64,000 nt of DNA from Aldrovandia affinis (Eukaryota > Chordata > Actinopteri > Notacanthiformes > Halosauridae), in assembly GCA_029706075.1 (NCBI GenBank), contig JAINUG010000477.1:124001-188000 (forward strand). The letters are read 5' to 3'. Under the pieces are notes generated by a model. It saw only the letters and a program-made list of their open reading frames with translations. It did no database searches and had not been told where the DNA came from. Each line of letters begins with the position of its first letter. Within the stretch, counting starts at the first letter, position 1. Below, piece after piece: positions 22,004-61,182 of the stretch. The position numbers and the translations under genes are program-made.

Positions 22004-24536
22004 ATGGAGTATAATCAGAATGCTGACAACAGGAAGGGGAGGAGCTGCCCACACTTGTCATGTCCTTATGAAGACATGAAGGAAGAATCTGTGATGGACA
22101 GCGCAGATTATACAGGGGTGGAGCCGAGATCAAGTCTGAACACAAGTGAAAACACAGAGGAGAGGAAGACTGGATACGGGATGAGCAGTGAGGGAAAAGA
22201 CATACTGTTCAACATGAAGGAGGAGGAGGAGGAGAAGTGTGTGAGTGTGAAAATGGAGAGGGAGGATGGTATGGAGAGGGAGGATGGTGTGGAGATGAAG
22301 AGGGACTTTGGAGAGAGAAAGAAAAAGAGAGGATTGAACAAGAGAGAGATTTAAACAATCAAATGGCCCCAACTGACAGAAGGGATAAGAATGGAGTAAA
22401 ATCAGAATGTGGGCAACAGGAAGGGGAACTGTCCACTCTTGTCATGTCCTTATTGCTAAAACAGCCGAGAGTGCTGATTCACCGACTTCAGTTCACGAAT
22501 ATCTCAGTTCCTGTGTCATCACTTCCACATTCCCTGTCCAACAAAAGAGACCAGGGAACAAGATGTCCAAGGAGACTGCATGAGCTCTCGCCAGTGAGGA
22601 TGAGGTCACTGGGGCGGAAGGGGCAGGTCATGACCCGGAAGAGGAAGATGATTAGCCAAATGGAAAGACCCCTGAAAGCTTCATCAATGAACGGGTAAGA
22701 ATCAATTGTGAAATGGATAATGTCTCTTCTCGTACTTGCTGTCAAGTCTTACACAAAATAATGTGCCTTTTACAGGAGCTGTGCTGAAGCCTCCTGTAGC
22801 TCTCCTGTCATCACCCCCAGGAACCAAAGCACAGGTTAAGATCCCTGCTAAGCATTTTCTCTGACTGCAGGCTGAGCCCTTTGGCCTAGACATCGCTAAT
22901 TTCAGTCAGGGCATTGTCAGCCATTAGAAAGGGGATGTAATCATTTAGCAAACAGAAGAAAGGGAAGTCTAGCACAGAGCTGGAGCTGGTTGACAGGTGG
23001 CACTGCAGAACATTTCAGATTTTGAGGAAAAGGACAACAAACAAGACAACAGTCCTTAAGCACCATTATTGGACATTTAAGGTTGTATGAAACCAATATT
23101 GAGATGATTTCTGCTTTATCACTGAGGTGCCTATTTGACTGATTTTACCTTTGTCTGTAGGGGAACCCTGAAATAGGGAGACGATGGGCCTGGAGGGCCA
23201 GTGTATCACTTCTAATATAAATCCTCACTTTTCTTGTTTAGTCTTAAGCATTGTATCCATTTCTACCTTCTCTCAATTACAGTTGTGTTTATCAGCACCT
23301 GTTTACCTGTATATTTCCAAAAAGCTTCTCCTTTACGCCTTCTCTCTCATCAGGACACTTTTCTGAGGTGTCGTGTCAGGTGTTTACCTGCTCCCATTGC
23401 CCATTCGTGCACATGGAGGAAGTGAAACTTCACCAGCACATTGAGAAAGTTCATCCAGAGGAGTACAGCAGGAGTCTAAGGTTTGGAGGAAACGGAACAG
23501 AGAACCCACTGCCTCCCAGCAGCACACATCAGCACCCCACACCGCCTAAGACTCTCCCAGCCCCAACACAGTCACACACAGGCACTCCAGGGGCCCACAC
23601 ATGCTCCCAGTGTGGGACAAGCTTCAGGTCTGAACCCTTGCTGAAAAAACACCAGCGAATCCATACAAGGGAGCGCCCATACCACTGTTCCCAGTGTGGG
23701 AAGAGTTTCAACATATTGCAGGACCTGAAACGACACCAGAGAACTCATACAGGGGAGCGCATACCTCTGCTCCCAATGTGGGAAGAGTTTCCGCAGATTG
23801 CAGAACCTGAAACAACACCTACTGATTCACACAGGGGTGCGTCCATACCCCTGCTCCCAGTGTGGGAAGAGTTTCACTTGGTCAAGTTCACTGAGGCTAC
23901 ACCAGCGAACTCATACAGGGGAGCGTCCGTACCCTGCTCCCAATGTGGGAAGAGTTTCACTTATCCAAGTTCACTGATGCGACACCAGCGAACTCATACA
24001 GGGGAGCGTCCGTACCCTGCTCCCAATGTGGGAAGAGTTTCACTTATCCAAGTTCACTGAAGGTACACCAGCAAACTCATACAGGGGAGCGTCCGTACCC
24101 CTTCTTCCAATGTGGGAAGAGTTTCACTCATCCAAGTTCACTGAAGGTACACCAGCGAACTCATACAGGGGAGCGTCCGTACCCCTGCTCCCAATGTGGG
24201 AAGAGTTTCACTTATCCAACTTCACTGATGCGACACCAGCGAACTCATACAGGGGAGCGTCCGTACCACTGCTCCCAATGTGGGAATAGTTTCAACACAT
24301 CCCAAGCCTGTGGGAACCAGCGAACTCATACAGGGGAGCCCCCGTACCACTGCTCCCAGTGTGGGAAGAGGTTCAGTGCAGTTGGTAATCTGACGAGACA
24401 CCAGTTGATTCACACAGGGGAGCGCCCGTACCACTGCTCCCAATGTGGGAAGAGTTTCAGTCAAGTTGGTAATCTGAAGAAACACCAGCGGATTCACACA
24501 AGCAAGCACACTAAAGCAGAACCAGGGGTGGGGTGA
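22004..24536 (+). pseudogene. ZNF-2: C2H2 poly-zinc-finger paralog, frameshifted
   Basis: Exons by homology: 22004-22694, 22776-22834 and 23354-24536, with the same donors, acceptors and phases as ZNF-1. A 1-bp deletion near 22288 (GTGGAGATG where ZNF-1 has GTGAGAGATG) shifts exon 1 to a stop at 22354. The correct frame continues to the donor. In the finger exon a 2-bp loss near 23756 and a 1-bp loss near 23932 compensate each other, so about two fingers are read in the wrong but open frame. A further 1-bp loss near 24013 gives a stop at 24060. Beyond it, fingers remain recognisable to 24536 ([40 protein letters not shown]), one of them degenerate (NTSQACGN). Three of the breaks lie in repeated CGTCCGTACCCCTGC text, so sequencing error should be excluded. 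Confidence 0.8.
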
Positions 24537-31905: not shown

Positions 31906-31950
31906 GCCTGATAGTTGATAGTGAGATCTGGTTGATAATACTTTATATTT

Positions 31951-32047
31951 ATATAATAATATATATGCCATTTAGCAGACGCTTTTATCCAAAGCGACTT
32001 ACAGTAGTGAATGCATACATTTTCAGTATATGTGGCCCCAGTGGGGA
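31951..32047 (-). mobile_element. SINE tail fragment at left edge of transposon unit 1
   Basis: GCCATTTAGCAGACGCTTTT and CAAAGCGACTTACAGTAGTG are the reversed tail of a second SINE family, truncated after CCCAGTGGGGAAT. The same fragment stands at the unit junction (38115-38186). A full-length relative follows unit 2 (44413-44552). Confidence 0.75.
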
Positions 32048-33218
32048 ATTGTTGACTGCTACAGTATGTTATGGAATTGCATTACATTACAGTTTCCAAG
32101 ATGGTTAAGTATGCATCCCTACAGGGAGGGATCCTTATCTAGAAAGGGGGACGTAGCGAACACGTGACCTAGTAGGAACCATCTAACGATGTATTGTTGT
32201 TGTGGGGAACAATAAAGCGGTTGCTTGAGTTGCGCATGTTTAATGATTGTGCGCCACATGAGGTTTCATTGTACCTATCAAACAATAGAACATTAACAAC
32301 ATAAAAAAAAAAAAAACGTTCTAAGCTGGGTAAAGGACCAATGGGGGTTATGCGGAACGGATTTCCGCGTTTTGCTAAACGTGGCTGCCCACTTCCGTTC
32401 CTTTTTTTAAAGTACCTGTGCCTGCTGTCTAATACTTTGCGTTAGCGTTAGCTAGCTAGTACTAACAACATTTTTTAAAGTACCTGTGCCAGCTGTCTAT
32501 TACCTAGCGTTAGCGTTAGCTGGTCGGTTGCTCAATAACAGTTACCTATGTAGATCTTTATGTTGTCTTCCTCATTTTTCACCAGTGTCAAACCGAGACA
32601 GGGTGACTGCCGATGTTCGCATCAGGGCAGCCTGTCACAGGCCAATGCGAAAGAACGAGAAGCCCCACAGCCTGAGAGTAGCGATGGTTCACATAAGGTT
32701 GATCTGTTCGAGTTCACCATCAGTTCCAGTTCAAGGATGGTAACGCTATGTCAAACTTCTCAAGGTATAAAGGCTAATCTGGCAATACGATCAGGACCCT
32801 CTTGACTATCTAATCTATCTAATCGTCATGATTTAAAAGGCACGACTTATACCAGCATTCCCATTTTGAGAAGTTTGATAAAGGCATCAGTTCAAAATAA
32901 CAGCTGTTCAAGTTCAGTGTTGTTAATACATTTCAGCTGAAAAACGAGTATAGGCAAGGTTATTGGGGTAACGGTATTATAGTTTCTTGTAAATCATTGA
33001 TTATCTAGTGGCATAATAGTATTTTATTCATCAGGTCTCTCAAAATAAAATTGATCACTATAAGGTACAGTATTAACAACCCATGATATTATTTTTATTT
33101 AATGATCACATTTGCCCCAGCAACTTACCTATTACTCAAATCAGTGCCATATGTTTTGCTCTCTGCTCTATTAACACTCATCTGTGTCATGTTACCAAAG
33201 TTTTCTCCATTTTTACAG

Positions 33219-35080
33219 ATAGTACTCCGGGATTCAGACCCTGTCATACTGACATCATATCAATGTTCATGTGTGGCAGGCACTGCAGTGTGTAATCACA
33301 TGGTTGCCCTGCTGTTTCAAACCGCACACTATTCAGAGCTGAATGTGCAGGTTGTACCCCTGTCCATGCCTGCACTGAGTCAGAGCAACAGTGGCACAAG
33401 CCCAGGACAGCAGTAAGTGTTGAGATGCCATTCATAGACCTAATAGTCCTGGTATTCATTATATTTAAGTATAACCGAAGGAACAACAGCATCAGAAGTC
33501 TAAAACTGTCCAGTATTTTTAAAGTGCAACTTAAAAATACATTTGCTCTGTTATTGCTATAGTCCTGATTTATACTTCCCATGGGCTATTTGAAGGAGAG
33601 CAGTCCATATTTTAATGCATTTTGTTTTGTTGTCTTAGTATCTTAAAATATTACACATATTTTGCCTTACCAGGTTTTCTTTTTTCCTTTTTTTGTTTGT
33701 TTCTTTTCTGTGCTGTTTCCCTTTTTCATTTGCTTCTCTCTTGTAGTGATTGTATGTTGTGTCTTTTTTTGTCAGGGAGTGAAACCTGGGCCTGTACACA
33801 AAATGGCCATCACCAGACCTAAGTCCAACCGGCTCACAGAATGAGGAATCAGGTGAGCTAATGAGCTATTACTGTATCATACAGGGCTAAGCAATCTGTA
33901 GGCTCATATGCTATAAGGAAAATGTTACCACTGCACATACATTCAAGGGGATTATTGAATACCCCTGTTGTACACTTGTTGTTATAACAAAGTTGCAGGA
34001 CTTGAGGCCAGAGATGAGCCTCAAGTCAAAATTGCCATGCTGCAAGTGACAATATTTAGAATCCACATAGTTCTTTACATTGGGGCACTTTATTTAAATG
34101 AGTTCAAACAGTGGCTGTGCAACAGTCAATCGATCAGGTGAGGCACTAAGCTAGAGTGGGGTGCATCAGACTGCATTTTGTCCATACAATTACCTTTGTT
34201 AATACATGACATGGGATGTCTAACACTCTTACTGTCTTTCAGAAGTACACTCCAAAAAGGCTTGGTTGGTGACCCCCTGGACCTCTCCTTGCTACAGATT
34301 GAGGACGCATATAAAGACTTCGATGTCACGGAGAAACCTCTGATAGCAAGTATGGGCATTAGTGATGAGAAGACCCTTGTTCAGACAGCTTTAGGCTTAG
34401 CACAAAAGGGGAGTGTGCTGTCATACCAGCAGCCCATATTGCCCACAAAGTCTGTCAGCATGCATCAAGATGCTCCACCTTACCTACCACTGCCTCTTGG
34501 GGAGTACAGGCTTGCTCCAACAGTGTGTGTGCATGTGTGCACCGAGGAGGAGCAGTTCCACCTGAAAAGCTTGACGGTCACACTAGACATGGCCAGAAAA
34601 ATTGAGGTGTCGACAAGGGAGCAGGCAGCAGACCAGGAGTGGCATCAGCTCCGTAGGCCTAGGATCACCTCCTCACGCTTCAGAGAGGTGTGTTTGGTGA
34701 GGGGTGAACACAATGCAGAGTCTCTTGCAGAGAGGATCCTAAAAGGAACTAGGCAGACAGCTGAGATGAGAAGAGGCACAGACATGGAGTTTGCAGCGAC
34801 AAAGGAATACTGCAGGATGAAAAACGTCAGCTACACATCATGCGGCCTTGTCATCCACCCTGATGCCCCGTGGCTTGGAGCCTCACCTGATGGGTTAATT
34901 TTTGATCCAACTGCACAACCACCATTTGGACTGATTGGAATTAAATGTCCCAATGTAAAGAATTATGTAGACTGTAAATACCTTAAAATGCAGCATGGGT
35001 CATCAGAGAGGGAGCTGGTGGACCAGTTTTATTTGAACATCTACATGCCAAAGTACCTGTTTGTCTCCAAAAGGCCTTGA
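33219..35080 (+). pseudogene. SWIM zinc finger plus YqaJ nuclease-like protein, unit 1
   Basis: Exons: 33219-33412, 33776-33852 and 34243-35080 (acceptors TTTTTACAG, TTTTGTCAG, CTTTCAG; donors GTAAGT, GTGAGC). An upstream exon near 32560-32770 is likely but unresolved. Exon 1 carries the SWIM motif CSCVAGTAVCNHMVALLF (CxC...CxH). Exon 3 carries the YqaJ domain: ITSSRFREV, MRRGTDMEF, WLGASPDGLIFD and LIGIKCPNVKNY. Lesions: a 1-bp loss near 33356-33360 shifts the SWIM exon, and an in-frame TGA at 33842-33844 ends the middle exon. The ExK nuclease motif reads GIK, without its Glu. YqaJ proteins are PD-(D/E)XK-type nucleases, so activity is not expected. The C-terminus after about 35000 is not reliably recognisable. 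Confidence 0.75.
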
Positions 35081-35230
35081 TCATTGGCAGAGGGGGCTTT
35101 GATTGTTACATGAATGGGGAAATAAACAGGTATTTAAAACTGATTGTGTACACAATGATTTATTTGTCAACTACAAAAATCTAAACATTTTACATTAATT
35201 TGTCATAGTCATATATTTCTTGTGGTCACT

Positions 35231-35358
35231 ATATTTATGATTTCATAAAGTAATTTCTTACATTTTCTTGTATACACATACAATTGTAATAGCTATATAT
35301 ATACAATTGTATGTGTATACAAGAAAAAAAAAAATTACTTTATGAAATCATAAAATAT
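35231..35358. repeat. Palindrome between convergent genes, unit 1
   Basis: The left arm (ATGATTTCATAAAGTAATTT ... GTATACACATACAATTGT) is mirrored by the right arm (ACAATTGTATGTGTATACAA ... AAATCATAAAATAT). The arms are about 55 bp and are imperfect in a poly-A stretch on the right. The 15-bp spacer between the ACAATTGT edges reads AATAGCTATATATAT. In unit 2 the spacer is in the opposite orientation. Confidence 0.85.
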
Positions 35359-35586
35359 ATCAAATATATATACAGTATGTATATAATTAACATTTACAAT
35401 TTGTACAATATATACATACACACATATATACGTTATGTATATGTATAATATATACGAGTGTTAAAAACATCAGTTGGTACGTTTTGACAAACCACTCAAA
35501 ACATACTGTATATGTTGCATACAAATCTGTGTATGTATAAATCTGCAACATTAGTACAATTATCGTTAAGATCAGTGAGGCTATGC

Positions 35587-37620
35587 TCAGGCCAGTTCCT
35601 TGGTCCAAGACTTGACCAGTGGCTTGTTCTGATAGTTTGAGAGGAGGCAAGCTACTGCAAAAAGCTGGTTGATATTTCCAGCGATGGTCAGAGGGATAAT
35701 AGTGTCAAACAATTTGTTCTCTTTAATTCGCCAAATTATCCTCTCCACATGTATCCTCAACCGTGCAATGTCCTGAGTCACCAGCACTTCATCATGTGAC
35801 AGCTGTGACTTTCTATTCAGAAAAGGTGGCCGGTAAACTTTGCAGGGCACTAGGTCATCGATACTAAATCCCTTGTCCACCATGACAGCCATATCTTTGT
35901 CCAAAAGAGGGATAATGCCAGATTGCTTGAACAATTCTTTGTCACTGACAGAGCCTGAATACAATGAGGATACAAAAGTGACAGCACCATGGGGAGACAC
36001 ACCTAGCATTCCTTTGAGAGTAGTGTGGGATTTATACTGGGAGAACATCTCACTCTGTAAGAGTAAACATGAAGGGGTCTGACATCTCAACTCTGTACAG
36101 TCAATAATGACTTGGGTATCAGCATACTTGCCAAACACACTCTGCATTTTGGCTCGCACTTCCTCAGCAGACATCCAGATCCCAACAGCGCCCAATAAGG
36201 TGTACAAAAAGTTAACCCATGTTTTGATGATTTGGCTGACAGTGGACTGGTGGATGTTGAACCGATGACCTAGATCTTTCTCCTTCAGGCCCAGGGACAG
36301 GTACACCAAGAAGAGGAACAACTCATCGATCAGTGGTAGGCATCGGCTCTGCAAGGGTGGGAGAGGGTGGGGGGAATAACAGCCCGATCATCACATTTAA
36401 TGAGAGTAGTGTTCTCATAGGTGCAGATTTATCTGCAAACTTTCTATCTTGCTTAGGGAGCACCAGTCTTGGGGTTACCATAGATCATTTTGAAACAATC
36501 ACTTTTATAATACTGTTAAGTTATACACAACAAAATGAGGTAATGTGAAATATACCTACTGGTCGAGGAGGTGGATCAGTGGCCTTGTCAGGAGCTGCTG
36601 CTGTAGCGGTGGAAATGGATGATTGTGTACTACCACGCGCGACTCTCCAGGTTGCTGGTTCAATCTGTTTCCAAAATACCAGTAGGTGGCGGTAGCTTGC
36701 AAATCTAAAAGTGTAAATTATATATGAACTTTTATAGCAAAGCATAACCTATTATTGGTATTCTCTCAGGTGGCCCCTCAAGCAATACATTGAACCAACT
36801 AATATTGTTGTGCATACACAATATATATACATGTGTGTGTTTAAGTTTTAACAAACACATGGCAGCTTTTTTAAGTTATGGAAAACTGGTGTAACATTAC
36901 CTATTATTGTGGCCAGTGAGTGTATGTACATTACTGTTCACATGCATATACTTATTTTGTCTGTATTTTAGTATACTAGGTGGAGATAAACCCTTTAAAT
37001 CTTTGAACATGAACACAAATCTAGAGGGTATAGGATATAGGACATTAGCTTAACTGGTGAAAAATCGTATGTCATCATCCGATCCTGAAAACCTCCAAGG
37101 CGAATGACTGCTGCAGCGTAACCTCCTCTAGCTTCTTTCGTAGCTCTTCAATCTCAAGCTGCTGGGCCTCTATTTTCTCTTGTGCTAGGTCCAAAGCTGC
37201 GGGTTCTGGTCTAGCATGATAATCGTGGCAGCGAAGAACCGAAGTAGCATCCATCTCTTCCTCTGTTTGTTCATCCTCTGGCCGTTGGGTTCGCTCCCAC
37301 ACACTTGGTCTGGCTACCGGCAGAGAGTAGTCATTCCACGCAAACAACACCGGAACAGCCCCTTCTTTCAACCGCCGTCGCCCACCCTGAATGACCTCTG
37401 AGGTGATGAAATGTCTGCTACACACCGTGGTGCTTCGTGAAATGACCAAATTCTCACGTCTGACATTACGTATCCACACTTGTTTTACATTTTCGTCTCT
37501 TGGGAAGTGGTGGAAACTTACAGCAGAGTTGAACTTCCCTGACATCGCGCACTGAGGTACACAGCAGAAATCAGCATTAGGATTAGCCCGCTTCTGATAC
37601 GTTAATCGTCTTGAATACAT
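35587..37620 (-). pseudogene. THAP-DDE_Tnp_4 transposase gene, unit 1
   Basis: Exon A (37620-37075): THAP domain with FCCVPQC (two Cys), FHHFPRDENVKQVWI and VCSRHF (Cys-His), then a coiled coil (IEAQQLEIEELRKKLEEV). Exon B (about 36704-36560): FASYRHLLVFWKQIEPATW and a Ser/Thr/Pro stretch. Exon C (36354-35587): HTH-like FNIHQSTVSQIIKTWV and a DDE domain with VIIDCTELRC (Asp), MAVMVDKGFS (Asp) and RIHVERIIWRIKENK (Glu). Lesions relative to unit 2: a 10-bp insertion near 36360-36374 shifts the start of the DDE exon, and a 2-bp loss near 37095 ends exon A early. The C-terminus (LLSNYQNKPLVKSW) looks native here. The donor of exon A (CACCAGTTAAG) fits poorly in both units. Confidence 0.75.
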
Positions 37621-37855
37621 TTTCCCCTATTCGCGCGAAAATTTCTTGTATGAAAATAAAATAGAACACCAATAATTTAAAAGGAATTTAAAGTTCAGAT
37701 AGAGTAATAGGCCATATACAAAATCAATTATCCGTTAATTTCCAGCCAACTTAGCTACTGACAGCGGCTACCTTGACCTTGTTGACTGGCGGAAGTGAGT
37801 GAGCACGTCTTCCGGTTTGGTCACGTGACTCGACATATACCCTATACTCAAGAAA

Positions 37856-38114
37856 AAAAGTCAATTTCATTCACATTACAATAACACATTTTATTAGTAG
37901 AATTTTGTAAAGTATGAGAAGGTTGAAGATGAAGATTGTAGTGTGCTGTATGAAACAAGTCCTCTACCTTTCATATCAGTGGCCTTTTGCACTGCTACAG
38001 CACACTGCTTAGATGTGGATAGACTTTGATCAATTACAGCTCCAAATTCTAATTGAACATATTCTTGTCCCCATCTCCTTCCACAAGCTACTCTTATATT
38101 TTTTATTTCTAATA
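37856..38114 (-). mobile_element. CR1 remnant at junction of the two units
   Basis: It matches, with an internal loss of roughly 150 bp, the CR1 remnant right of unit 2 (44006-44412). Shared text includes ACTGCTACAGCACACTGCTT and TTGATCAATTACAGCTCC. Its presence between the units shows that the tandem duplication carried host flanking repeat sequence with it. Confidence 0.8.
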
Positions 38115-38186
38115 TGTGCCATTTAGCATGCTTTTATCAAAGGACTTACAGAAGTGAATGCATACATTTTCAGTATATGTGATCCC
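38115..38186 (-). mobile_element. SINE tail fragment at left edge of transposon unit 2
   Basis: Equivalent of 31951-32047 (TTTAGCATGC, AGAAGTGAATGCATACATTT), again running directly into the transposon unit after CCCAGTGGGGAAT. Confidence 0.75.
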
Positions 38187-39364
38187 AGTGGGGAATTGTT
38201 GACTGCTACAGTATGTTATGGAATTGCATTACATTACAGTTTCCAAGATGGTTAAGTATGCATCCCTACAGGGGAGGATCCTTATCTAGAAAGGGGACGC
38301 GAAACACGTGACCTAGTAGGAACCATCTAACGATGTATTGTTGTTGTGAGGGAACAATAAAGCGGTTTGCTTGAGTTGCGCATGTTTAATGATTGTGCGC
38401 CACATGAGGTTTCATTGTACCTATCAAACAATAGAACATTAACAACATTAAAAAAAAAAAAACGTTCTAAGCTGGGTAAAGGACCAATGGGGGTTATGCG
38501 GAACGGATTTCCGGCGTTTTGCTAAACGTGGCTGCCCACTTCCGTTCCTTTTTTAAAGTACCTGTGCCTGCTGTCTAGCCGCCCGGCGTTAGCGTTAGCT
38601 AGCTAGTACTAACAACATTTTTTAAAGTACCTGTGCCAGCTGTCTATTACCTAGCGTTAGCGTTAGCTGGTCGGTTGCTCAATAACAGTTACCTATGTAG
38701 ATCTTTATGTTGTCTTCCTCATTTTTCACCAGTGTCAAACCGAGACAGGGTGACTGCCGATGTTCCGCATCAGGGCAGCCTGTCACAGGCCAATGCGAAA
38801 GAACGAGAAGCCCCACAGCCTGAGAGTAGCGATGGTTAGCATAAGGTTGATCTGTTTGAGTTCACCATCAGTTCCAGTTCAAGGATGGTAACGCTATGTC
38901 AAACTTCTCAAGGTATAAAGGCTAATCTGGCAATACGATCAGGACCTCTTGACTATCTAATCTATCTAATCGTCATGATTTAAAAGGCACGACTTATACC
39001 AGCATTCCCATTTTGAGAAGTTTGATAAAGGCATCAGTTCAAAATAACAGCTGTTCAAGTTCAGTGTTGTTAATACATTTCAGCTGAAAACGAGTATAGG
39101 CAAGGTTATTGGGGTAACGGTATTATAGTTTCTTGTAAATCATTGATTATCTAGTGGCATAATAGTATTTTATTCATCAGGTCTCTCAAAATAAAATTGA
39201 TCACTATAAGGTACAGTATTAACAACCCATGATATTATTTTTATTTAATGATCACATTTGCCCCAGCAACTTACCTATTACTCAAATCAGTGCCATATGT
39301 TTTGCTCTCTGCTCTATTAACACTCATCTGTGTCATGTTACCAAAGTTTTCTCCATTTTTACAG

Positions 39365-41243
39365 ATAGTACTCCGGGATTCAGACCCTGTCATACTGACA
39401 TCATATCAATGTTCATGTGTGGCAGGCACTGCAGTGTGTAATCACATGGTTGCCCTGCTGTTTCAAACCGCACACTATTCAGAGCTGAATGTGCAGGTTG
39501 TACCCCCTGTCCATGCCTGCACTGAGTCAGAGCAACAGTGGCACAAGCCCAGGACAGCAGTAAGTGTTGAGATGCCATTCATAGACCTAATAGTCCTGGT
39601 ATTCATTATATTTAAGTATAACCGAAGGAACAACAGCATCAGAAGTCTAAAACTGTCCAGTATTTTTAAAGTGCAACTTAAAAATACATTTGCTCTGTTA
39701 TTGCTATAGTCCTGATTTATACTTCCCATGGGCTATTTGAAGGAGAGCAGTCCATATTTTAATGCATTTTGTTTTGTTGTCTTAGTATCTTAAAATATTA
39801 CACATATTTTGCCTTACCAGGTTTTCTTTTTTCTTTTTTTTGTTTGTTTCTTTTCTGTGCTGTTTCCCTTTTTCATTTGCTTCTCTCTTGTAGTGATTGT
39901 ATGTTGTGTCTTTTTTTGTCAGGGAGTGAAACCTGGGCCTGTACACAAAATGGCCATCACCAGACCTAAGTCCAACCGGCTCACAGAATGAGGAATCAGG
40001 TGAGCTAATGAGCTATTACTGTATCATACAGGGCTAAGCAATCTGTAGGCTCATATGCTATAAGGAAAATGTTACCACTGCACATACATTCAAGGGATTA
40101 TTGAATACCCTGTTGTACACTTGTTGTTATAACAAAGTTGCAGGACTTGAGGCCAGAGATGAGCCTCAAGTCAAAATTGCCATGCTGCAAGTGACAATAT
40201 TTAGAATCCACATAGTTCTTTACATTGGGGCACTTTATTTAAATGAGTTCAAACAGTGGCTGTGCAACAGTCAATCGATCAGGTGAGGCACTAAGCTAGA
40301 GTGGGGTGCATCAGACTGCATTTTGTCCATACAATTACCTTTGTTAATACATGACATGGGATGTCTAACACCCTTACTGTCTTTCAGAAGTACACTCCAA
40401 AAAGGCTTGGTTGGTGACCCCCTGGACCTCTCCTTGCTACAGATTGAGGACGCATATAAAGACTTCGATGTCACGGAGAAACCTCTGATAGCAAGTATGG
40501 GCATTAGTGATGAGAAGACCCTTGTTCAGACAGCTTTAGGCTTAGCACAAAAGGGGAGTGTGCTGTCATACCAGCAGCCCATATTGCCCACAAAGTCTGT
40601 CAGCATGCATCAAGATGCTCCACCTTACCTACCACTGCCTCTTGGGGAGTACAGGCTTGCTCCAACAGTGTGTGTGCATGTGTGCACCGAGGAGGAGCAG
40701 TTCCACCTGAAAAGCTTGACGGTCACACTAGACATGGCCAGAAAAATTGAGGTGTCGACAAGGGAGCAGGCAGCAGACCAGGAGTGGCATCAGCTCCGTA
40801 GGCCTAGGATCACCTCCTCACGCTTCAGAGAGGTGTGTTTGGTGAGGGGTGAACACAATGCAGAGTCTCTTGCAGAGAGGATCCTAAAAGGAACTAGGCA
40901 GACAGCTGAGATGAGAAGAGGCACAGACATGGAGTTTGCAGCGACAAAGGAATACTGCAGGATGAAAAACGTCAGCTACACATCATGCGGCCTTGTCATC
41001 CACCCTGATGCCCCGTGGCTTGGAGCCTCACCTGATGGGTTAATTTTTGATCCAACTGCACAACCACCATTTGGACTGATTGGAATTAAATGTCCCAATG
41101 TAAAGAATTATGTAGACTGTAAATACCTTAAAATGCAGCATGGTCATCAGAGAGAGGGTGGACCAGTTTTATTTGAACATCTACATGCCAAAGTACCTGT
41201 TTGTCTCCAAAAGGCCTTGATCATTGGCAGAGGGGGGCTTTGA
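39365..41243 (+). pseudogene. SWIM zinc finger plus YqaJ nuclease-like protein, unit 2
   Basis: Exons: 39365-39559, 39923-39999 and 40388-41243, with phases 0 and 2 compatible. The SWIM exon is in frame here (CTESEQQWHKPRTA), followed by GVKPGPVHKMAITRP. The middle exon has the same in-frame TGA as unit 1 (39989-39991), and the last exon the same GIK in place of ExK. Near 41140-41156 small deletions shift the C-terminus relative to unit 1. The shared stop and shared loss of the catalytic Glu must predate the tandem duplication. A start downstream of the stop, giving a YqaJ-only product, cannot be excluded. Confidence 0.75.
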
Positions 41244-41370
41244 TTGTTACATGAATGGGGAAATAAACAGGTATTTAAAACTGATTGTGTACACAATGAT
41301 TTATTTGTCAACTACAAAAATCGAAACATTTTACATTAATTTGTCATAGTCATATATTTCTTGTGGTCAC

Positions 41371-41511
41371 TATATTTTATGATTTCATAAAGTAATTTCT
41401 TACATTTTCTTGTACACATACAATTGTATATATATAGCTATTACAATTGTATGTGTATACAAGAAAATGTAAGAAATTACTTTATGAAATCATAAAATAT
41501 ATCAAATATAT
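41371..41511. repeat. Palindrome between convergent genes, unit 2
   Basis: Arms of about 60 bp are nearly perfect (TTTATGATTTCATAAAGTAA ... and its complement ending TTTCATAAAATATA region). The spacer with its ACAATTGT edges reads ACAATTGTATATATATAGC followed by TATTACAATTGT. This is exactly the reverse complement of the unit 1 spacer. Confidence 0.9.
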
Positions 41512-41639
41512 ATACAGTATGTATATAATTAACATTTACAATTTGTACAATACATACATACACACACATATATACGTTATGTATACGTATAATATATACA
41601 AGTGTTAAAAACATCAGTTGGTACGTTTTGACAAACCAC

Positions 41640-43769
41640 TCAAAACATACTGTATATGTAGCATACAAATCTGTGTATGTATAAATCTGCAACATTGGTA
41701 CAATTATCGTTAAGATCAGTGAGGCTATGCTCAGGCCAGTTCCTTGGCCCAAGACTTGACCAGTGGCTTGTTCTGATAGTTTGGAGGCAAGCTACTGCAA
41801 AAAGCTGGTTGATATTTCCAGCGATGGTCAGAGGGATAATAGTGTCAAACAATTTGTTCTCTTTAATTCGCCGAATTATCCTCTCCACATGTATCCTCAA
41901 CCGTGCTATGTCCTGAGTCACCAGCACTTCATCATGTGACAGCTGTGACTTTCTATTCAGAAAAGATGGCCGGTAAACTTTGCAGGGCACTAGGTCATCG
42001 ATACTAAATCCCTTGTCCACCATGACAGCCATATCTTTGTCCAAAAGAGGGATAATGCCAGATTGCTTGAACAATTCTTTGTCACTGACAGAGCCTGAAT
42101 ACAATGAGGATACAAAAGTGACAGCACCATGGGGAGACACACCTAGCATTCCTTTGAGAGTAGTGTGGGATTTATACTGGGAGAACATCTCACTCTGTAA
42201 GAGTAAACATGAAGGGGTCTGACATCTCAACTCTGTACAGTCAATAATGACTTGGGTATCAGCATACTTGCCAAACACACTCTGCATTTTGGCTCGCACT
42301 TCCTCAGCAGACATCCAGATCCCAACAGCGCCCAATAAGGTGTACAAAAAGTTAACCCATGTTTTGATGATTTGGCTGACAGTGGACTGGTGGATGTTGA
42401 ACTGATGACCTAGATCTTTCTCCTTCAGGCCCAGGGACAGGTACACCAAGAAGAGGAACAACTCATCGATCAGTGGTAGGCATCGGCTCTGCAAGGGTGC
42501 GGGGAATAACAGCCCGATCATCACATTTAATGAGAGTAGTGTTCTCATAGGTGCAGATTTATCTGCAAACTTTCTATCTTGCCTAGGGAGCACCAGTCTT
42601 GGGGTTACCATAGATCATTTTGAAACAATCACTTTTATAATACTGTTAAGTTATACACAACAAAATTAGGTAATGTGAAATATAGCTACCGGTCGAGGAG
42701 GTGGATCAGTGGCCTTGTCAGGAGCTGCTGCAGCGGTGGAAATGGATGATTGTGTACCACCACGCGCGACTCTCCAGGTTGCAGGTTCAATCTGTTTCCA
42801 AAATACCAGTAGGTGGCGGTAGCTTGCAAATCTAAAAGTGTAAGTAAATTATATATGAACTTTTATAGCAAAGCATAACCTATTATTGGTATTCTCTCAG
42901 GTGGTCCCTCAAGCAATACATTGAACCAACTAATATTGTTGTGCATACACAATATAATATACGTGTGTGTGTGTTTAAGTTTTAACAAACACATGGCAGC
43001 TTTTTTAAGTTTTATGGAAAACTGGTGTAACATTACCTATTATTGTGGCCAGTGAGTGTATGTACATTACTGTATACAAGTTCACATGCATATACTTATT
43101 TTGTCTGTATTTTAGTATACTAGGTGGAGATAAACCCTTTAAATCTTTGAACATGAACACAAATCTAGAGGGTATAGGATATAGGACATTAACTTAACTG
43201 GTGAAAAATCGTATGTCATCATCCGATCCTGAAAACCTCTCCAAGGCGAATGACTGCTGCAGCATAACCTCCTCCAGCTTCTTTCGTAGCTCTTCAATCT
43301 CAAGCTGCTGGGCCTCTATTTTCTCTTGTGCTAGGTCCAAAGCTGCGGGTTCTGGTCTAGCATGATAATCGTGGCAGCGAAGAACCGAAGTAGCATCCAT
43401 CTCTTCCTCTGTTTGTTCATCCTCTGGCCGTTGGGTTCGCTCCCACACACTTGGTCTGGCTACTGGCAGAGAGTAGTCATTCCACGCAAACAACACCGGA
43501 ACAGCCCCTTCTTTCAACCGCCGTCGCCCACCCTGAATGACCTCTGAGGTGATGAAATGTCTGCTACACACCGTGGTGCTTCGTGAAATGACCAAATTCT
43601 CACGTCTGACATTACGTATCCAAACTTGTTTTACATTTTCGTCTCTTGGGAAGTGGTGGAAACTTACAGCAGAGTTGAACTTCCCTGACATCGCGCACTG
43701 AGGTACACAGCAGAAATCAGCATTAGGATTAGCCCGCTTCTGATACGTTAATCGTCTTGAAAAATACAT
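41640..43769 (-). pseudogene. THAP-DDE_Tnp_4 transposase gene, unit 2
   Basis: Exon A (43769-43194): THAP domain as in unit 1, with a longer end FALERFSGSDDDIRFFTS, the typical lead into the next exon of such transposases. Exon B about 42838-42691. Exon C (42611-41640) is open through its N-terminal part (RKFADKSAPMRTLLSLNVMI), HTH-like FNIHQSTVSQIIKTWV, and the DDE residues IIDCTE, MVDKGF and HVERIIRR. A 4-bp loss near 41781 shifts the last residues out of LLSNYQNK into an unrelated tail. Catalytic residues are all present. The lesion differs from those in unit 1, so the two copies were damaged independently. Confidence 0.75.
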
Positions 43770-44005
43770 TTTCCCCTATTCGCGAAAATTTCTTGTATGA
43801 AAATAAAATAGAACACCAATAATTTAAAAGGAATTTAAAGTTCAGATAGAGTAATAGGCCATATACAAAATAAATTATCCGATAATTTCCAGCCAACTTA
43901 GCTAGTGACAGCAGCTACCTTGACCTTGTTGACTGGCGGAAGTGAGTGAGCACGTCTTCCGGTTTGGTCACGTGACGCTCGACATATACCCTATACTCAA
44001 GAAAA

Positions 44006-44412
44006 AAAGTCAATTTCATTCACATTACAATAACACATTTTATTAGTAGAATTTTGTAAAGTATGAGAAGGTTGAAGATGAAGATTGTAGTGTGCTGTAT
44101 GAAACAAGTCCTCTACCTTTCATATCAGGTACTAATTTAGTTCCCCTTCTTTGTACTTTTTGAGCACCCAGAAGTGTGTTGCCCAGAACTGCACACAGTA
44201 CTCTAAGTGAGGTCTGACAACAGCATCATAGAACATCAATACATTGACTCATACCCATATATTCCAGCATCCTGTTGGCCTTTTGCACTGCTACAGCACA
44301 CTGCTTAGATGTGGATAGACTTTGATCAATTACAGCTCCAAATTCTAATTGAACATATTCTTGTCCCCATCTCCTTCCACAAGCTACTCCTTATATTTTT
44401 TATTTCTAATAT
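44006..44412 (-). mobile_element. CR1-type LINE remnant right of unit 2
   Basis: The minus strand carries a decayed C-terminal block equivalent to 55985-56390 beside ZNF-4 (AGTACTGTGTGCAGTTCTGG, CTGATATGAAAGG). No frame is open. It continues after SINE insertions at 44553-44694 and 45066-45440. Confidence 0.75.
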
Positions 44413-44552
44413 GTGCCATTTAGCACATGCTTTTATCCAAAGGGACTTACAGAAGTGAATGCATACATTTTTCAGTATATGTTGTCCCAATGGGAATCAA
44501 ACCCACAACCTAAGCATCGTCAGTGCCATACTCTACTTACTGAGCCACACAG
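44413..44552 (-). mobile_element. tRNA-derived SINE (second family)
   Basis: The minus strand has an A-box-like TGGCTCAGTAAGTAGAG and a B box in GGTTGTGGGTTTGATTCCC, then the tail ending GCATGTGCTAAATGGC. A SINE at the same place in the ZNF-4-side CR1 remnant (56420-56568) shows that it inserted before the loci duplicated. Confidence 0.8.
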
Positions 44553-44694
44553 AACCACACATTTCTCACATGCATAACTTCACATTTAGCTATATTGAGT
44601 GTCATCTTGGATTACCTTATTCGTTTGTACTCAACCTTGCAGCCAATTATGAACCCACTCTGAAACATCTCCTGTAATTCCTACTGAAATTATT

Positions 44695-45611: not shown

Positions 45612-47996
45612 TCACCCCACCCCTGGTTCTGCTTTAGGGTGCTTGCTTTTGTGAATCCGCTGGTGTCTCTTCAGATTACCAGCATGACTGAAATTCTTCC
45701 CACACTGGGAGCAGTGGTATGGGCGCTCCCCTGTGTGAGTTCGCTGGTGTAGCATCAGTGAACTTGACAGAGTGAAACTCTTCCCACATTGGGAGCAGGG
45801 GTATGGGCGCTCCCCTGTATGAGTTCGCTGGTGTTGTGTCAGTGAACTTGACCAAATGAAACTCTTCCCACACTGGGAGCAGTGGTACGGGCGCTCCCCT
45901 GTATGGACTTTCTGATGTCGCTTCAGTGCAGTTGACCAAGTGAAACTCTTCCCACATTGGGAGCAGTGGTATGGATGCTCCCCTGTGTGAATCCGTTGGT
46001 GTTTTTTTAAATAATTTAAAGTGCTGAAACTCTTCCCACACTCGGAGCAATGGTACGTGCACTCCCCTGTGTGAATCCGCTGGTGGTTCTTCAGATTACC
46101 AACTTGACTGAAACTCTTCCCACACTGGGAGCAGTGGTACAGACGCTCCCCTGTGTGAATCCGCTGGTGTTTCTTCAGATTACCAACTTGACTGAAACTC
46201 TTCCCACACTGGGAGCAGTGGTGCGGACGCTCCCCTGTATGGATTTGCTGGTGTTGTCTCAGGTGCTGCAATGTGTGGAAACTCTTCCCACATTGGAAGC
46301 AGTGGTACGGGCGCTCCCCTGTATGGACTTGCTGGTGTCTCTTCATATGCTGCAATGTCATGAAACTCTTCCCACATTGGGAGCAGGGGTACGGACGCTC
46401 CCCATGAATTTGCTGGTGTTTTTTCAGCAAGGGCTCAGATCTGAACCTTATCCCACACTGGGAGCATGTGTGGGGCCCTGGAGTGCCTGTGTGTGACTGT
46501 GTTGGGGTGGGGAGAGTCTTAGGGGAGGTGGGGTGCTGATGTGTGCTGCTGGGAGGCAGTGGGCTCTCTTCTCCGTTTCCTCCAGACCTCAGACTCCTGC
46601 TGTACTCCTCTGGGTGAACCCTCTCAATGTGCTGGTGAAGTTTCACTTCCTCCATGTGCACGAATGGGCAATGGGAGCAGGTAAACACCTGACACGACAC
46701 CTCAGAAAGGTGTCCTGAGGAGAGAGAAGGCATAAAGGAGATAATATACTTTTTGGAAATATACAAGTAAACAGGTGCTGATAAACACAACCGTAATTGA
46801 AAGAAAGTAGAAATGGATACAATGCTAATGACTAAACAACAAAAGTGAGGATTTATATTAGAAGTAATACACTGGCCCTCCAGACCAATCTCCTCCCTAT
46901 TTCAGGGTTCCCCTATACACAAAGGTCAAATCAGTCAAATAGGCACCTCAGTGATAAAGCAGAAACCATCTCAATATTGCTTTCATACATGTCCAATAAT
47001 GGTGCGCAAGGACTGTTGTCTTGTTTCTTGTTATTAAATGTTCTGCATTGCCACCAGCTAACCCTCTGCAGATCTATGCTAGACTTCCCTTTCTTCTGTT
47101 TGTAAATGATTACAGCCCCTTTCTATTGGCTGACAATGCCATGACTGGAATTAGCGATGTCTAGGCCAAAGGGCTCAGCCTGTAGTCAGAGAAAATGATT
47201 AGCAGGGATCTTAACCTGTGCTTTGGTTCCTGGGGGTGATGACAGGAGAGCTACAGGAGGCTTCAGCACAGCTCCTGTAAAAGGCACATTATTTTGTGTA
47301 ACACCCGACAGCAATTAGGAGAAGAAACACTGTCCATTTTACAATTGATTCTTACCCGTTCATTGATGAAGCTTTCAGGGGTCTTTCCAATTGGCTAATC
47401 ATCTTCCTCTTCCGGGTCACGACCTGCCCCTTCCGCCCCAGTGACCTCATCCTCACTGGTGAGAGCTCATGCAGTCTCATTGGACATCTTGTTCCCTGGT
47501 CTCTTTTGTTGGACAGGGAATGTGGAAGTGATGACACAGGAACTGAGATATTTGTGAATTGAAGTCGGCGAATCAGCACTCTCGGCTGTTTTAGCAATAA
47601 GGACATGACAAGAGTGCACAGTTCCCCTTCCTGTTGCCCACATTCTGATTTTACTCCATCTCTCTCCTGTTCAACCCTTTCTTTTTCTTGCTCCCTCCAA
47701 AGTCCCTCTTCATCTCTCACACCTTCCTCCCTCTCCATTTTCACACTCACACACCTCTCTCCTTCCTCCTCCTTCATGTTGAACAGTATGTCTTTTTCCT
47801 CCCTGCTCATCCCATATCCAGTCTTCCTCTCTTTCCTCTCCTCTGTGTTTTCACTTGTGTTCAGACTTGATCTTGGCTCCACCCCTGTATAATCTGTGCT
47901 GTCCATCACAGATTCTTCCTTCATGTCTTCATAAGGGCATGACAATTGTGGGCAGCTCCTCCCCTTCCTGTTGTCTGCATTCTGATTATACTCCAT
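45612..47996 (-). CDS. ZNF-3: C2H2 poly-zinc-finger protein, 3 coding exons, 600 aa
   Basis: Model on the minus strand: exons 47996-47356, 47274-47216 and 46714-45612. Lengths 641 + 59 + 1103 = 601 codons with stop. Phases 2 and 1 match ZNF-1. The N-terminal exon has the same acidic domain ([20 protein letters not shown], then [18 protein letters not shown]) and both SUMO-type motifs, but lacks about 14 residues (the LNNQMAQTDRR segment) present in ZNF-1. The finger exon has one divergent finger ([14 protein letters not shown]), a Pro-rich linker, and ten tandem fingers. Helix residues -1,2,3,6 are SPLK, TQHR, TQHQ, QGNK, QGNN, TNYK, WTAR, WSSQ, LSSL and HGNR. The linker before finger 2 is GERPY with one residue missing, and one linker reads TGECTY. 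It is the best candidate, with ZNF-1, for a working gene. Target DNA unknown. Confidence 0.87.
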
Positions 47997-50755: not shown

Positions 50756-51225
50756 TGGATCGCCTGCTTAGATGGCTAGTGAAATACTTGCTAGTAAAAT
50801 AAAAATCGTGATAACAGATAACCTTTATCATTTCCTTTTTGTATAGGAGCTGTGCTTATATTGTTAATTGTTTTCGATTTTACATTGTGTTAGTGATGCT
50901 AGGGGGAGTTCGCTGTTTCACACATAATAATAATAGATATATCATGTAGCCTTCGCGTTTAATGTATGTAAATGCTAGCTAACGTCACCGACAGTGTTTA
51001 TGCTCAACTCATGTGGGTAACGTTACAAGAGTTAATTTCACAGATAACAGGCCATAACGTGGGATGGACTAGTTAGCTATATTAACTTACTGTAGTACCC
51101 ACCAGACTAGTTGATTTCTTTCACACACACACCATCATTTTAAACCTTGCAGTGTTATTTGTTGTATACATAGCAAGCTAGTCCATCCCACAATTGGATA
51201 TGAATATAATAATAATAATATATGC

Positions 51226-51290
51226 CATTTAGCAGACGCTTTTATCCAAAGCGACTTACAGTAGTGAATGCATACATTTTCAGTATACAT
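51226..51290 (-). mobile_element. SINE tail fragment inside fold-back element
   Basis: GCCATTTAGCAGACGCTTTT and AAGCGACTTACAGTAGTG, the same fragment as at 31951. It interrupts the inverted symmetry of the right arm, so it inserted later. Confidence 0.75.
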
Positions 51291-55512: not shown

Positions 55513-55984
55513 ATATTTTGTTTGCAGTCTTTTGAAACCACATAAAAACAATGCATTTATACAAATACATGATATAGCACACAATACCGAATAAAAAAAA
55601 GTCAATTTCATTCACATTACATTAACAGAAATATGCCAATGTAGTGTTGGCACACTGTCTTTTAGCTTCTGCTGCTTTGCTGCGGCTAATGGTAGCTTCA
55701 CAATGACATTTCAGGGTCTATACAGGCCTACTAGGGAGTAAAGTGTGGGATCCTCAAATTACATAATGAAGCTAACATTAGCAACAGCAAAGCAGCAGAA
55801 GCCATGGGGCAGTGTGCCAACACTGGTACTACTTACCAGTTTTAATGCAGAATTATGCCATTTGGGTGACTATCCTTGTAAAAGCAGTGATTACAATTCA
55901 TGTTTTACAACCATTTAGAAGATATACGTGAAAGAATGAGTGAATAATCAGCACAGTGATGTGTGTTATAAAAAATAAGAAGCA
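55513..55984. other. Noncoding flank shared with ZNF-1 side
   Basis: 55755-55930 is the inverted counterpart of 9128-9300 and contains the empty site of LINE C. The phrase AAAAAGTCAATTTCATTCAC (about 55597) also occurs right of each transposon unit (37856, 44006). No gene. Confidence 0.55.
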
Positions 55985-56419
55985 GTCATCAATGAACTAT
56001 GGACATTTTATTTGTATTTTGTAAAATATGAGAAGGTTGAAGGTGAAGATTGTACTGTGCTGCATGAAAGCAGTCCTCGTAACTTTTACCTTTCATATCA
56101 GGTACTAATTTAGTTGTCCTTTGTACTTTTTCAAGCACTTCTACATCTTTCTTGTAGTGTGGTGCCCAGAACTGCACGCAGTACTCTAACTGAGGTCTGA
56201 CAAGGGTATTATAGAACACCAATATAACCTCCTTTGATTCATACTCCGTACTTCCGGCTATATATCTCAGCATCTGATTGGCCTTTTTCTACTGCTACAG
56301 CACACTGCTTAGATGTGGAGACTTTGATCAATTACAGCTCCGAATTCTAATTGAACATATTCTTGTTCCCATCTCCTCCAACAAAATACAATATATTTGT
56401 ATCTCTAAAATAATATACA

Positions 56420-56568
56420 ACATTTAGCAGATGCTTTTATCCAAAACAACTTACAGAAGTGAATGCATACATCTTTCAGTACAGTATATGTGGTCCCAAT
56501 GGGAATCAAACCCACAACTTAAGTGTTGTCAACGCCATGCTCTACCTACTGAGCCACAGAAAAACACA
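56420..56568 (-). mobile_element. tRNA-derived SINE (second family) in CR1 remnant
   Basis: Reversed tail AACATTTAGCAGATGCTTTT, B box on the minus strand GGGTTTGATTCCC, and TGGCTCAGTAGGTAGAG. It occupies the same site as 44413-44552. Confidence 0.8.
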
Positions 56569-56833
56569 CATTTCTCACATGCATAACATTTAGCTATATT
56601 GAATGTCATCTTAGATTACCTTTTTCAATTTCAAGTTTCGGATCATCTGAAAATGTAGCTACTTCGCTACTAACATCCCTATCAAGATCATTTATATAAA
56701 TAAGGAAGAGCAGAGGTCCCAGCACCGATCCCTGTGGGACACCACTGCCCACAGCACCGAGGTCAGATACGGCCACACCTACTGTTACTCTTTGTATTCG
56801 CCCTTGCAGCCAATTATGAACCCACTCTGAAAC

Positions 56834-58588: not shown

Positions 58589-61182
58589 TCACCCCACCCC
58601 TGGTTCTGCTTTAGGGAGCTCGCTTGTGTGAATCCGCAGGTGTTTCATCAGATTACCAACTTCACTGAACCTCTTCCCACATTGGGAGCAGTGGTACGGG
58701 CGCTCCCCTGTGTGGATCCGCTGGTGTTTCGTCAGACTACCAACTTCACTGAACCTCTTCCCACATTGGGAGCAGTGGTACGGGCGCTCCCCTGTGTGGA
58801 TCCGCTGGTGTTTCGTCAGATTACCAACTTCACTGAACCTCTTCCCACATTGGGAGCAGGGGTATGGGCGCTCCCCTGTGTGAATCCGCTGGTGTTTCGT
58901 CAGACTACCAACTTGACTGAAACTCTTCCCACATTGGGAGCAGTGGTACGGACGCTCCCCTGTATGAGCTCGCTGGTGTACCATCAGTGAACTTGACTCA
59001 CTGAACCTCTTCCCACATTGGGAGCAGGGGTACGGGCGCTCCCCTGTATGGATTCGCTGGTGTTTCGTCAGATTACCAACTTGACTGAAACTCTTCTCAC
59101 AGTGGTAGCAGTGGTACGGACGCTCCCCTGTATGGATTTGCTGGTGTTGTTTCAGGTGCTGCAATGTGTGGAAACTATTCCCACATTGGGAGCAGTGGTA
59201 CGGGCGCTCCCCTGTATGGATTTGCTGGTGTTGTTTCAGGTGCCGCAATATGCGGAAACTCTTCCCACATTGGGAGCAGGGGTATGGGCGCTCCCCTGTG
59301 TGAGTCCGCTGGTGTACTGTCAGAGAACATGACCGAGTGAAACTCTTTCCACATTGGGAGCAGTGGTACGGACGCTCTCCTGTATGGATATGCTGGTGTC
59401 GCTTCAATGGGCAAGAGGCACTGAAACTCTTTGCTGGGAGCAGTGGTACGGGCGCTCCCCTGTGTGAGTCCGCTGGTGTAACGTCAGTGAACTTGACCGA
59501 GTGAAACTCTTCCCACATTGGGAGCAGTGGTACGGGTGCTTCCCTGTATGGATTCTCTGGTGTATTTTCAACAAGGGTTCAGATCTGAAGCTCGTCCCAC
59601 ACTGGGAGCATGTGTGGGGGCCTGGAGTGCCTGTGTGTGACTGTGTTGGGGTGGGGAGAGTCTTAGGCGGTGTGGGGTGCTGATGTGTGCTGCTGGGAGG
59701 CAGTGGGTTCTCTGCTCCGTTTCTGCCAAACCTCAGACTCCTGCTGTACTCCTCTGGGTGAAGCTTCTCAATGTGCTGGTGAAGTTTCACTTCCTCCATG
59801 TGCACGAATGGGCAATGGGAGCAAGTAAACACCTGACACGACACCTCAGAAAGGTGTCCTGAGGAGAGAGAAGGCGTAAAGGAGATATTAAGCTTTTTGG
59901 AAATGTACAAGTAAGCAGGTGCTGATAAACCCAACCGTAATTCAGAGGAAGTACAAATGGATACAATGCTAAAGACTAAACAAGAAAAGTGAGGATTTAT
60001 ATTAGAAGTGATACACTGGCCCTCCAGGGCCATCTTCTCCCTATTTCAGGGTTCCTCTACAGACAAAAGTCAAATCAGTCACATAGGCACCTCAGTGATA
60101 AAGCAGAAATCATCTCAATATTGGTTTCATCCAGCCTTCAATGTCCAATAATGGTGCTTAAGGACTTTTGTCTTGTTTCTTGTTCTTAAATGTTCTGCAT
60201 TGCCACCAGCTAACCTTCTCCAGATCTGTGCTAGACTTCCCTTTCTTCTGTTTGCTAAATGATTACATCCCCTTTCTATTGGCTGACAATGCCATGACTG
60301 GAATTAGCGATGTCTAGGCCAAAGAGCTCAGCCTGCAGTCAGAGAAAATGATTAGCAGGGATCTTAACCTGTGTTTTGGTTCCTGGGGGTGATGACAGGA
60401 GAGCTACAGGAGGCTTCAGCACAGCTCCTGTAAAAGGCACATTATTTTGTGTAACACCCGACAGCAATTAGGAGAAGAAACACTGTCCATTTTACAATTT
60501 ATTCTTACCCATTCATTAATGAAGCTTTCAGGGGTCTTTCCAATTGGCTAATAATTTTCCTCTTCCAGGTCACGACCTGCCCCTTCCGCCCCAGTGACCT
60601 CATCCTCACTGGCGAGAGCTCATGCAGTCTCATTGGAAATCTTGTTCCCTGGTCTCTTTTGTTGGACAGGGAGTGTGGAGGTGATGACACAGGAACTGAG
60701 ATATTCATGAATTCAAGTCGGCGAATCAGCACTCTCGGCTGTTTTAGCAATAAGGACATGACAAGAGTGGACAGTTCCCCTTCCTGTTGCCCACATTCTG
60801 ATTTTACTCCATTCTTATCCCTTCTGTCAGTTTGGGCCGTTTGATTGTTTAAATCTCGCTCTTGTTCAATCCTCTCTTTTTCTTTCTCCCTCCAAAGTTC
60901 CTCTTCATCTCTCACACCTTCCTCCCTCTCCATTTTCACACTCACACACTTCTCTCCCTCCTCCTCCTTCATGTTGAACAGTATGTCTTTTCCCTCACTG
61001 CTCATCCCGTATCCAGTCTTCCTCTCCTCTGTGTTTTCACTTGTGTTCAGACTTGATCTCGGCTCCACCCCTGTATAATCTGTGCTGTCCATCACAGATT
61101 CTTCCTTCATGTCTTCATAAGGACATGACAATTGTGGGCAGCTCCTCCCCTTCCTGTTGTCTGCATTCTGATTATACTCCAT
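58589..61182 (-). pseudogene. ZNF-4: C2H2 poly-zinc-finger paralog with one 4-bp deletion
   Basis: Exons on the minus strand: 61182-60509, 60427-60369 and 59858-58589, with the same phases as ZNF-1 and ZNF-3. Exon 1 (224 codons) is open and carries both SUMO-type motifs. In the finger exon a 4-bp loss near 59430-59436 (CTCCCAGCAAAG where other fingers have CTCCCAATGTGGGAAG) removes the second Cys of finger 3 and shifts the frame to a stop at 59404. Downstream nine intact fingers remain. Counting the broken one there are twelve in tandem: SPLI, RSSL, ACPR (broken), RCSV, IRHQ, TQHQ, QGNK, ESSV, QGSK, EGNK, EGSK and EGNK at -1,2,3,6. A single lesion suggests recent loss, a polymorphism or an assembly error. 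One late finger has CYHCEKSF. Confidence 0.82.

Follow-up and report, generated by a model that had tools for sequence, protein, structure and literature searches.

A 64,000-nucleotide window of the genome of the halosaurid fish Aldrovandia affinis (GenBank assembly GCA_029706075.1, contig JAINUG010000477.1, positions 124,001 to 188,000 of the forward strand; all positions below are those of the window) contains two directly adjoining units of about 6.1–6.3 kb, each of which looks like one ISL2EU-type transposon with a long palindrome between two convergent genes. The 13-nt spacer at the centre of the palindrome is inverted between the units, whilst the genes and the flanks of the palindrome lie in the same orientation in both. 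This arrangement probably arose when the element was duplicated by exchange between flanking repeats and the spacer of one copy was later inverted in place by polymerase template switching.

The flip is read from the comparison of two tandem paralogues in one contig. In each unit the arms of the palindrome are about 59 nt long; they abut the spacer directly and end in ACAATTGTA and TACAATTGT on its two sides. The units and the parts of their palindromes are as follows.

31939 to 38088, no strand assigned: unit 1 of the tandem duplication (self-BLAST and global alignment)
35231 to 35288, + strand: left arm of the unit 1 palindrome, lacking one T towards its outer end
35289 to 35301, + strand: unit 1 spacer, ATAGCTATATATA
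35302 to 35360, + strand: right arm of the unit 1 palindrome, with a decayed A-run at 35324-35334
38089 to 44400, no strand assigned: unit 2 of the tandem duplication (self-BLAST and global alignment)
41371 to 41428, + strand: left arm of the unit 2 palindrome, with TA lost near 41412
41429 to 41441, + strand: unit 2 spacer, TATATATAGCTAT, exactly reverse-complementary to that of unit 1
41442 to 41502, + strand: right arm of the unit 2 palindrome

The spacers are reverse complements at all 13 positions, and when they are compared directly without gaps all 13 positions mismatch. The inversion between arms and genes of unchanged orientation, as given in a preliminary description of this DNA, is thus confirmed to the letter. 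A correction concerns the arms, which are no longer identical: unit 1 has the T loss and the decayed A-run and unit 2 the TA loss. At each of these three private differences the remaining three arms agree, which makes it probable that the arms were still perfect when the duplication took place. In unit 1 the arms now pair without gap or interruption for 26 nt outward from the spacer, in unit 2 for 16 nt. As single strands the two palindromes fold stably (-44.3 and -54.6 kcal/mol with DNA parameters), and BLAST at an E-value of 1e-3 found no copy of the palindrome in the window beyond these two.

BLAST aligns 31939-37979 with 38089-44128 at 97.7% identity over 6081 columns. When the whole units are aligned globally, 6029 positions match, 83 columns are substitutions and 35 gap events occur, the spacer alone contributing 13 of the 83 substitution columns. 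In the global alignment a 147-nt stretch of the right-hand repeat of unit 2 (44129-44275) is absent from unit 1 at 37979. The units also differ by a replaced cluster, AATACTTTG (32432-32438) in unit 1 and AGCCGCCCGG (38578-38585) in unit 2, for which no direct or inverted local source was found.

The origin of the pair can be followed in a repeat at the unit borders which, from its look, we take to be a short interspersed nuclear element (SINE). It occurs at three places around the units.

31943 to 32045, no strand assigned: left SINE-like repeat, truncated where the element body starts (BLAST comparison)
38093 to 38192, no strand assigned: hybrid SINE-like repeat at the unit junction (site-by-site comparison)
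44035 to 44622, no strand assigned: right flanking repeat with a SINE-like insert at 44414-44559 (related copies at 56003-56626 and 5433-5873)

The right-hand SINE-like piece resembles an insertion: at 5433-5873 the surrounding repeat occurs without it, and the two alignment pieces of that copy overlap by 13 nt in the manner of a target duplication. The junction repeat is a hybrid. Over 38093-38152 it matches the right copy at 13 of the 14 sites at which the left and right copies differ, position 38127 matching neither, and from 38166 into the element body it resembles the left copy, with one contrary site at 38183. A hybrid of this kind is the mark that unequal homologous exchange between flanking repeats leaves behind, and one segmental tandem duplication, produced by exchange between the SINE-like repeats, is the best reading of the two units. 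Two separate transposon insertions are rejected on account of the hybrid junction and of the duplication of the flanking repeat along with the element. Given such a duplication, both palindromes would probably go back to a single ancestor, unless the exchanging homologues already differed. A fourth SINE-like copy lies at 51216-51287, with 92% identity to the right-hand copy.

Neither the palindromes nor the flip is readily attributed to chance or to simpler mutation. An ungapped hairpin scan of the window, with a loop of up to 25 nt, found four hairpins at or above a score of 15, the two palindromes ranking best; that of unit 1 has a score of 26, whereas 100 dinucleotide shuffles of 35101-35500 never exceeded 12. 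Slippage or simple insertion and deletion in the TA-rich centre was assessed by enumerating every path made up of one tandem duplication and one deletion, of 1–8 nt each, through a 31-nt core. None of the 12184 length-keeping paths, out of 96800, yields the core of the other unit in either direction. A single inversion does convert one core into the other, with ten symmetric choices of end points inside the 31-nt core; because the arms mask the edges, the true ends are hidden and the inverted stretch may exceed 13 nt. Inverted local copying was sought, within a distance of 150 nt, for 16 clusters of differences between the units; clusters that span more than 60 columns, and with them the 147-nt gap, were skipped. 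An inverted local match of 54 nt covers the spacer in both directions, and the right-arm cluster at 35327 has a match of 54 nt in one direction and of 4 nt in the other. The 14 clusters outside the palindrome, each with at least three difference columns, have inverted local matches of just 0–7 nt, and no further short inversion was detected among them.

The history that fits these observations would begin with an ISL2EU-type transposon carrying the palindrome, its arms of about 59 nt then probably perfect around the 13-nt spacer, between its convergent genes. Unequal homologous exchange between the SINE-like repeats on both sides of the element would have duplicated it in tandem, and the spacer would afterwards have been inverted in place in one of the two units. 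A polymerase may have left its template within one arm, used the opposite strand to copy the spacer, and returned to the first template in the other arm. Hairpin-forming arms would make such switching likely, and the palindrome is the likely cause of the flip. We infer the order of these events, the part played by a polymerase and the neutrality of the change. Template switching is preferred as the mechanism because the arms are long. It was proposed earlier that recombination or cruciform resolution between the arms had turned the spacer. A flip between the arms remains the best reading, but recombination through a loop is disfavoured, having been argued to be physically impossible for inversions below 33 bp (PMC8755829), and either template switching or repair of a break is the better fit. 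Where the repeats are longer and perfect, that paper admits template switching.

Similar changes have been described elsewhere. In Saccharomyces, ten exact inversions of spacers between inverted-repeat arms, involving changes of 2–5 bp, have been attributed to intermolecular template switching, and in nine of the ten the arms were already perfect and the spacer alone was altered (PMC8604942). Those cases lie in coding genes and emerged from the comparison of strains, whereas the present spacer is 13 nt long between arms of about 59 nt, is noncoding and was found by comparing tandem paralogues. Between human and chimpanzee, 59 microinversions of 17–33 nt have been reported, all with flanking inverted repeats, of 3 to 75 nt per flank (PMC8755829). 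The spacer described here shares with them the form of a short reversed segment between inverted repeats, being an exact reverse complement of the homologous segment and flanked directly by the repeats; at 13 nt it falls below the cut of more than 15 nt used in that study and so is not a 'definite' case in its terms. In ribosomal RNA hairpins, 69 inversions confined to the loop have been recorded, mostly in loops of 4 nt, whilst inversion of the loop together with change in the stem is very rare (PMC8794818).

The assignment of the units to an ISL2EU-type element rests on their genes, in which a YqaJ gene faces a THAP/DDE transposase gene. Each unit contains three relevant open reading frames (ORFs).

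34178 to 35080, + strand: unit 1 YqaJ-domain ORF (Pfam PF09588, E 3.4e-13)
35587 to 36354, - strand: unit 1 transposase ORF, HTH_Tnp_4 and DDE_Tnp_4 (PF13359, E 2.9e-36; PF13613, E 2.2e-17)
37075 to 37620, - strand: unit 1 THAP-domain ORF (PF05485, E 3.9e-18)
40323 to 41243, + strand: unit 2 YqaJ-domain ORF (PF09588, E 5.8e-13)
41640 to 42611, - strand: unit 2 transposase ORF, HTH_Tnp_4 and DDE_Tnp_4 (PF13359, E 2.2e-35; PF13613, E 6.5e-17)
43194 to 43769, - strand: unit 2 THAP-domain ORF (PF05485, E 4.4e-18)

The likeness to ISL2EU, of the PHIS or Harbinger-like superfamily, lies in the YqaJ exonuclease ORF, in the DDE, HTH and THAP domains on the opposite strand and in the occurrence in teleosts: ISL2EU has been detected in some teleosts, though not in three of eight studied for coverage, and was not detected in spotted gar, coelacanth or elephant shark (PMC9179366). 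Autonomous ISL2EU elements mostly have two ORFs, one combining DDE, HTH and THAP and the other encoding YqaJ (PMC4482050; compare PMC9179366), whereas in both units here the THAP domain occupies a separate ORF, upstream of the DDE ORF on the same strand. Published ISL2EU ends show an AT target duplication within A|AT|T and a terminal inverted repeat usually starting with GG. A search of the units for terminal inverted repeats gave only short matches at chance level, for example the 9-nt CACGTGACC in both units, and the AT target duplication was not found. The label 'ISL2EU-type' was chosen in view of these ends and of the separate THAP ORF. A central palindrome is a further difference, being unmentioned in the main text of PMC4482050 and PMC9179366. 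As a candidate origin for it, a palindromic miniature inverted-repeat transposable element lodged within the transposon was considered. Scans for relatives of the transposase in the collections viral_contigs and genome_contigs, and of the YqaJ protein and the arm pattern in viral_contigs, found none, which says little because the collections are viral and prokaryotic. A 34-nt stretch beside the right end of the element (44002-44035) recurs with 97% identity at 55594-55627, near a hairpin at 55.7 kb; it could represent the end of an element or a third repeat.

Several points weigh against inversion by template switching after the duplication. An untemplated insertion of 5 nt with a deletion of 5 nt, a gapped reading made by eye and lying outside the path enumeration, gives the same spacer, although it is less simple than one inversion. 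At the ends of the stretch compared around the junction, sites of mixed affinity occur (38081-38091 and 38208-38210), outside the repeat or beside alignment gaps. The private arm changes were not homogenised by the flip, from which it follows that the last flip predates them or that switching took place within the innermost 16–26 nt. A difference already present between the exchanging chromosomes, or an error of assembly, may fit as well, and break-induced repair yields a product that is inseparable by sequence from that of template switching. Inversion of the spacer during repair of a double-strand break at the hairpin, by microhomology-mediated break-induced replication or by nicking and resolution of a cruciform, is the first rival to consider, and an unlikely one. 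The stable folding of both palindromes speaks for it, as does the proposal that break repair could explain all of the human–chimpanzee microinversions, above all those with short or imperfect repeats; the long perfect repeats at issue here are, by contrast, the case for which the same paper permits template switching (PMC8755829). Rather improbable is an artefact of assembly, reads or amplification that left the palindrome of one unit mis-oriented or chimeric. On its side, several of the 35 gap events are, in our reading, single bases in homopolymer runs such as error-prone reads produce. Palindromic DNA is also difficult to sequence, and template switching can occur on it in vitro. An artefact sits poorly with a flip that is exact to the base and with units that each have their own private arm differences. 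An assembler is moreover hardly likely to have made the tandem join by mistake: the repeat in which it lies has diverged between its left and right copies, and where the junction changes from one to the other these are identical for only about 17 nt, by a count made by eye. Still less probable is the prior existence of both orientations, segregating or in other copies of the family, and their union by exchange between homologues or by gene conversion. Unequal exchange can take place between homologues, but on this account the same flip must have happened earlier, and a further step is added.

Two other readings would make the palindrome a working part of the element, and both bear on the earlier suggestion that it serves as a transposition hairpin or as a terminator shared by the two genes. 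Polyadenylation hexamers (AATAAA and ATTAAA only) were sought in 34950-35700 and 41090-41850, with the following result.

35121 to 35126 (unit 1) and 41262 (unit 2), + strand: AATAAA on the side of the YqaJ gene
35159 to 35164 (unit 1) and 41300 (unit 2), - strand: AATAAA on the side of the transposase gene
35028 (unit 1) and 41168 (unit 2), - strand: further AATAAA

All of the AATAAA hexamers found, on both strands and in both units, lie to the left of the palindrome, and in neither unit does the scanned stretch between the transposase ORF and the palindrome contain AATAAA on the - strand. Since the signals of both genes are on the same side, the palindrome would sit in the 3' untranslated region of the transposase gene and not at a terminator common to the two, which weakens the idea of a shared convergent terminator. 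A role as a transposition hairpin finds no support either and is unlikely, because the palindrome lies well inside the unit, about 2.5–3.4 kb from its ends (those of the unit and not the element's own). That the flip is a regulated switch of such a working part is hardly credible. A long palindrome does occupy the space between two convergent genes in both units; against regulation stand its internal position, the placement of the hexamers and a stem that the flip leaves unchanged, and the string 'palindrom' occurs nowhere in the main text of PMC4482050 or PMC9179366. Flip-flop hairpins are found at the ends of some viral genomes. On that model, it is conceivable, if very doubtful, that the palindrome is a retained and often-flipping component of the ISL2EU lineage, perhaps exposed in replication or excision and processed by the element's own YqaJ exonuclease; mixed spacer orientations would then be expected throughout the genome and the population.

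The pair is a natural case of short inversion at a long palindrome, in which the tandem duplicate supplies a built-in comparison: palindromes that were probably once identical are now one clean flip apart. Small flips of hairpin centres are a known type of mutation, probably resulting from strand switching in DNA copying and calling for no new machinery. The locus is thus a clean example of an ordinary mechanism and does not point to a new system. It also advises caution in assembly and variant calling, where the flip shows up as 13 clustered substitutions.

Elsewhere in the window, the hairpin near 55.7 kb is long and imperfect (55665-55802), with arms of about 57 nt and a spacer at 55722-55745, and has no BLAST similarity to the palindromes of the units. 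Beyond its arms, 55640-55657 and about 55811-55826 also show an inverted match by eye, in the manner of a palindromic miniature inverted-repeat transposable element. An ORF at 45612-46790 encodes C2H2 zinc fingers with repeats of 84 nt (Pfam was run on this ORF alone), and similar stretches occur on both strands at about 3447-4188, 23641-24500 and 58614-59570, which suggests that the transposon pair may lie within a cluster of zinc-finger genes.

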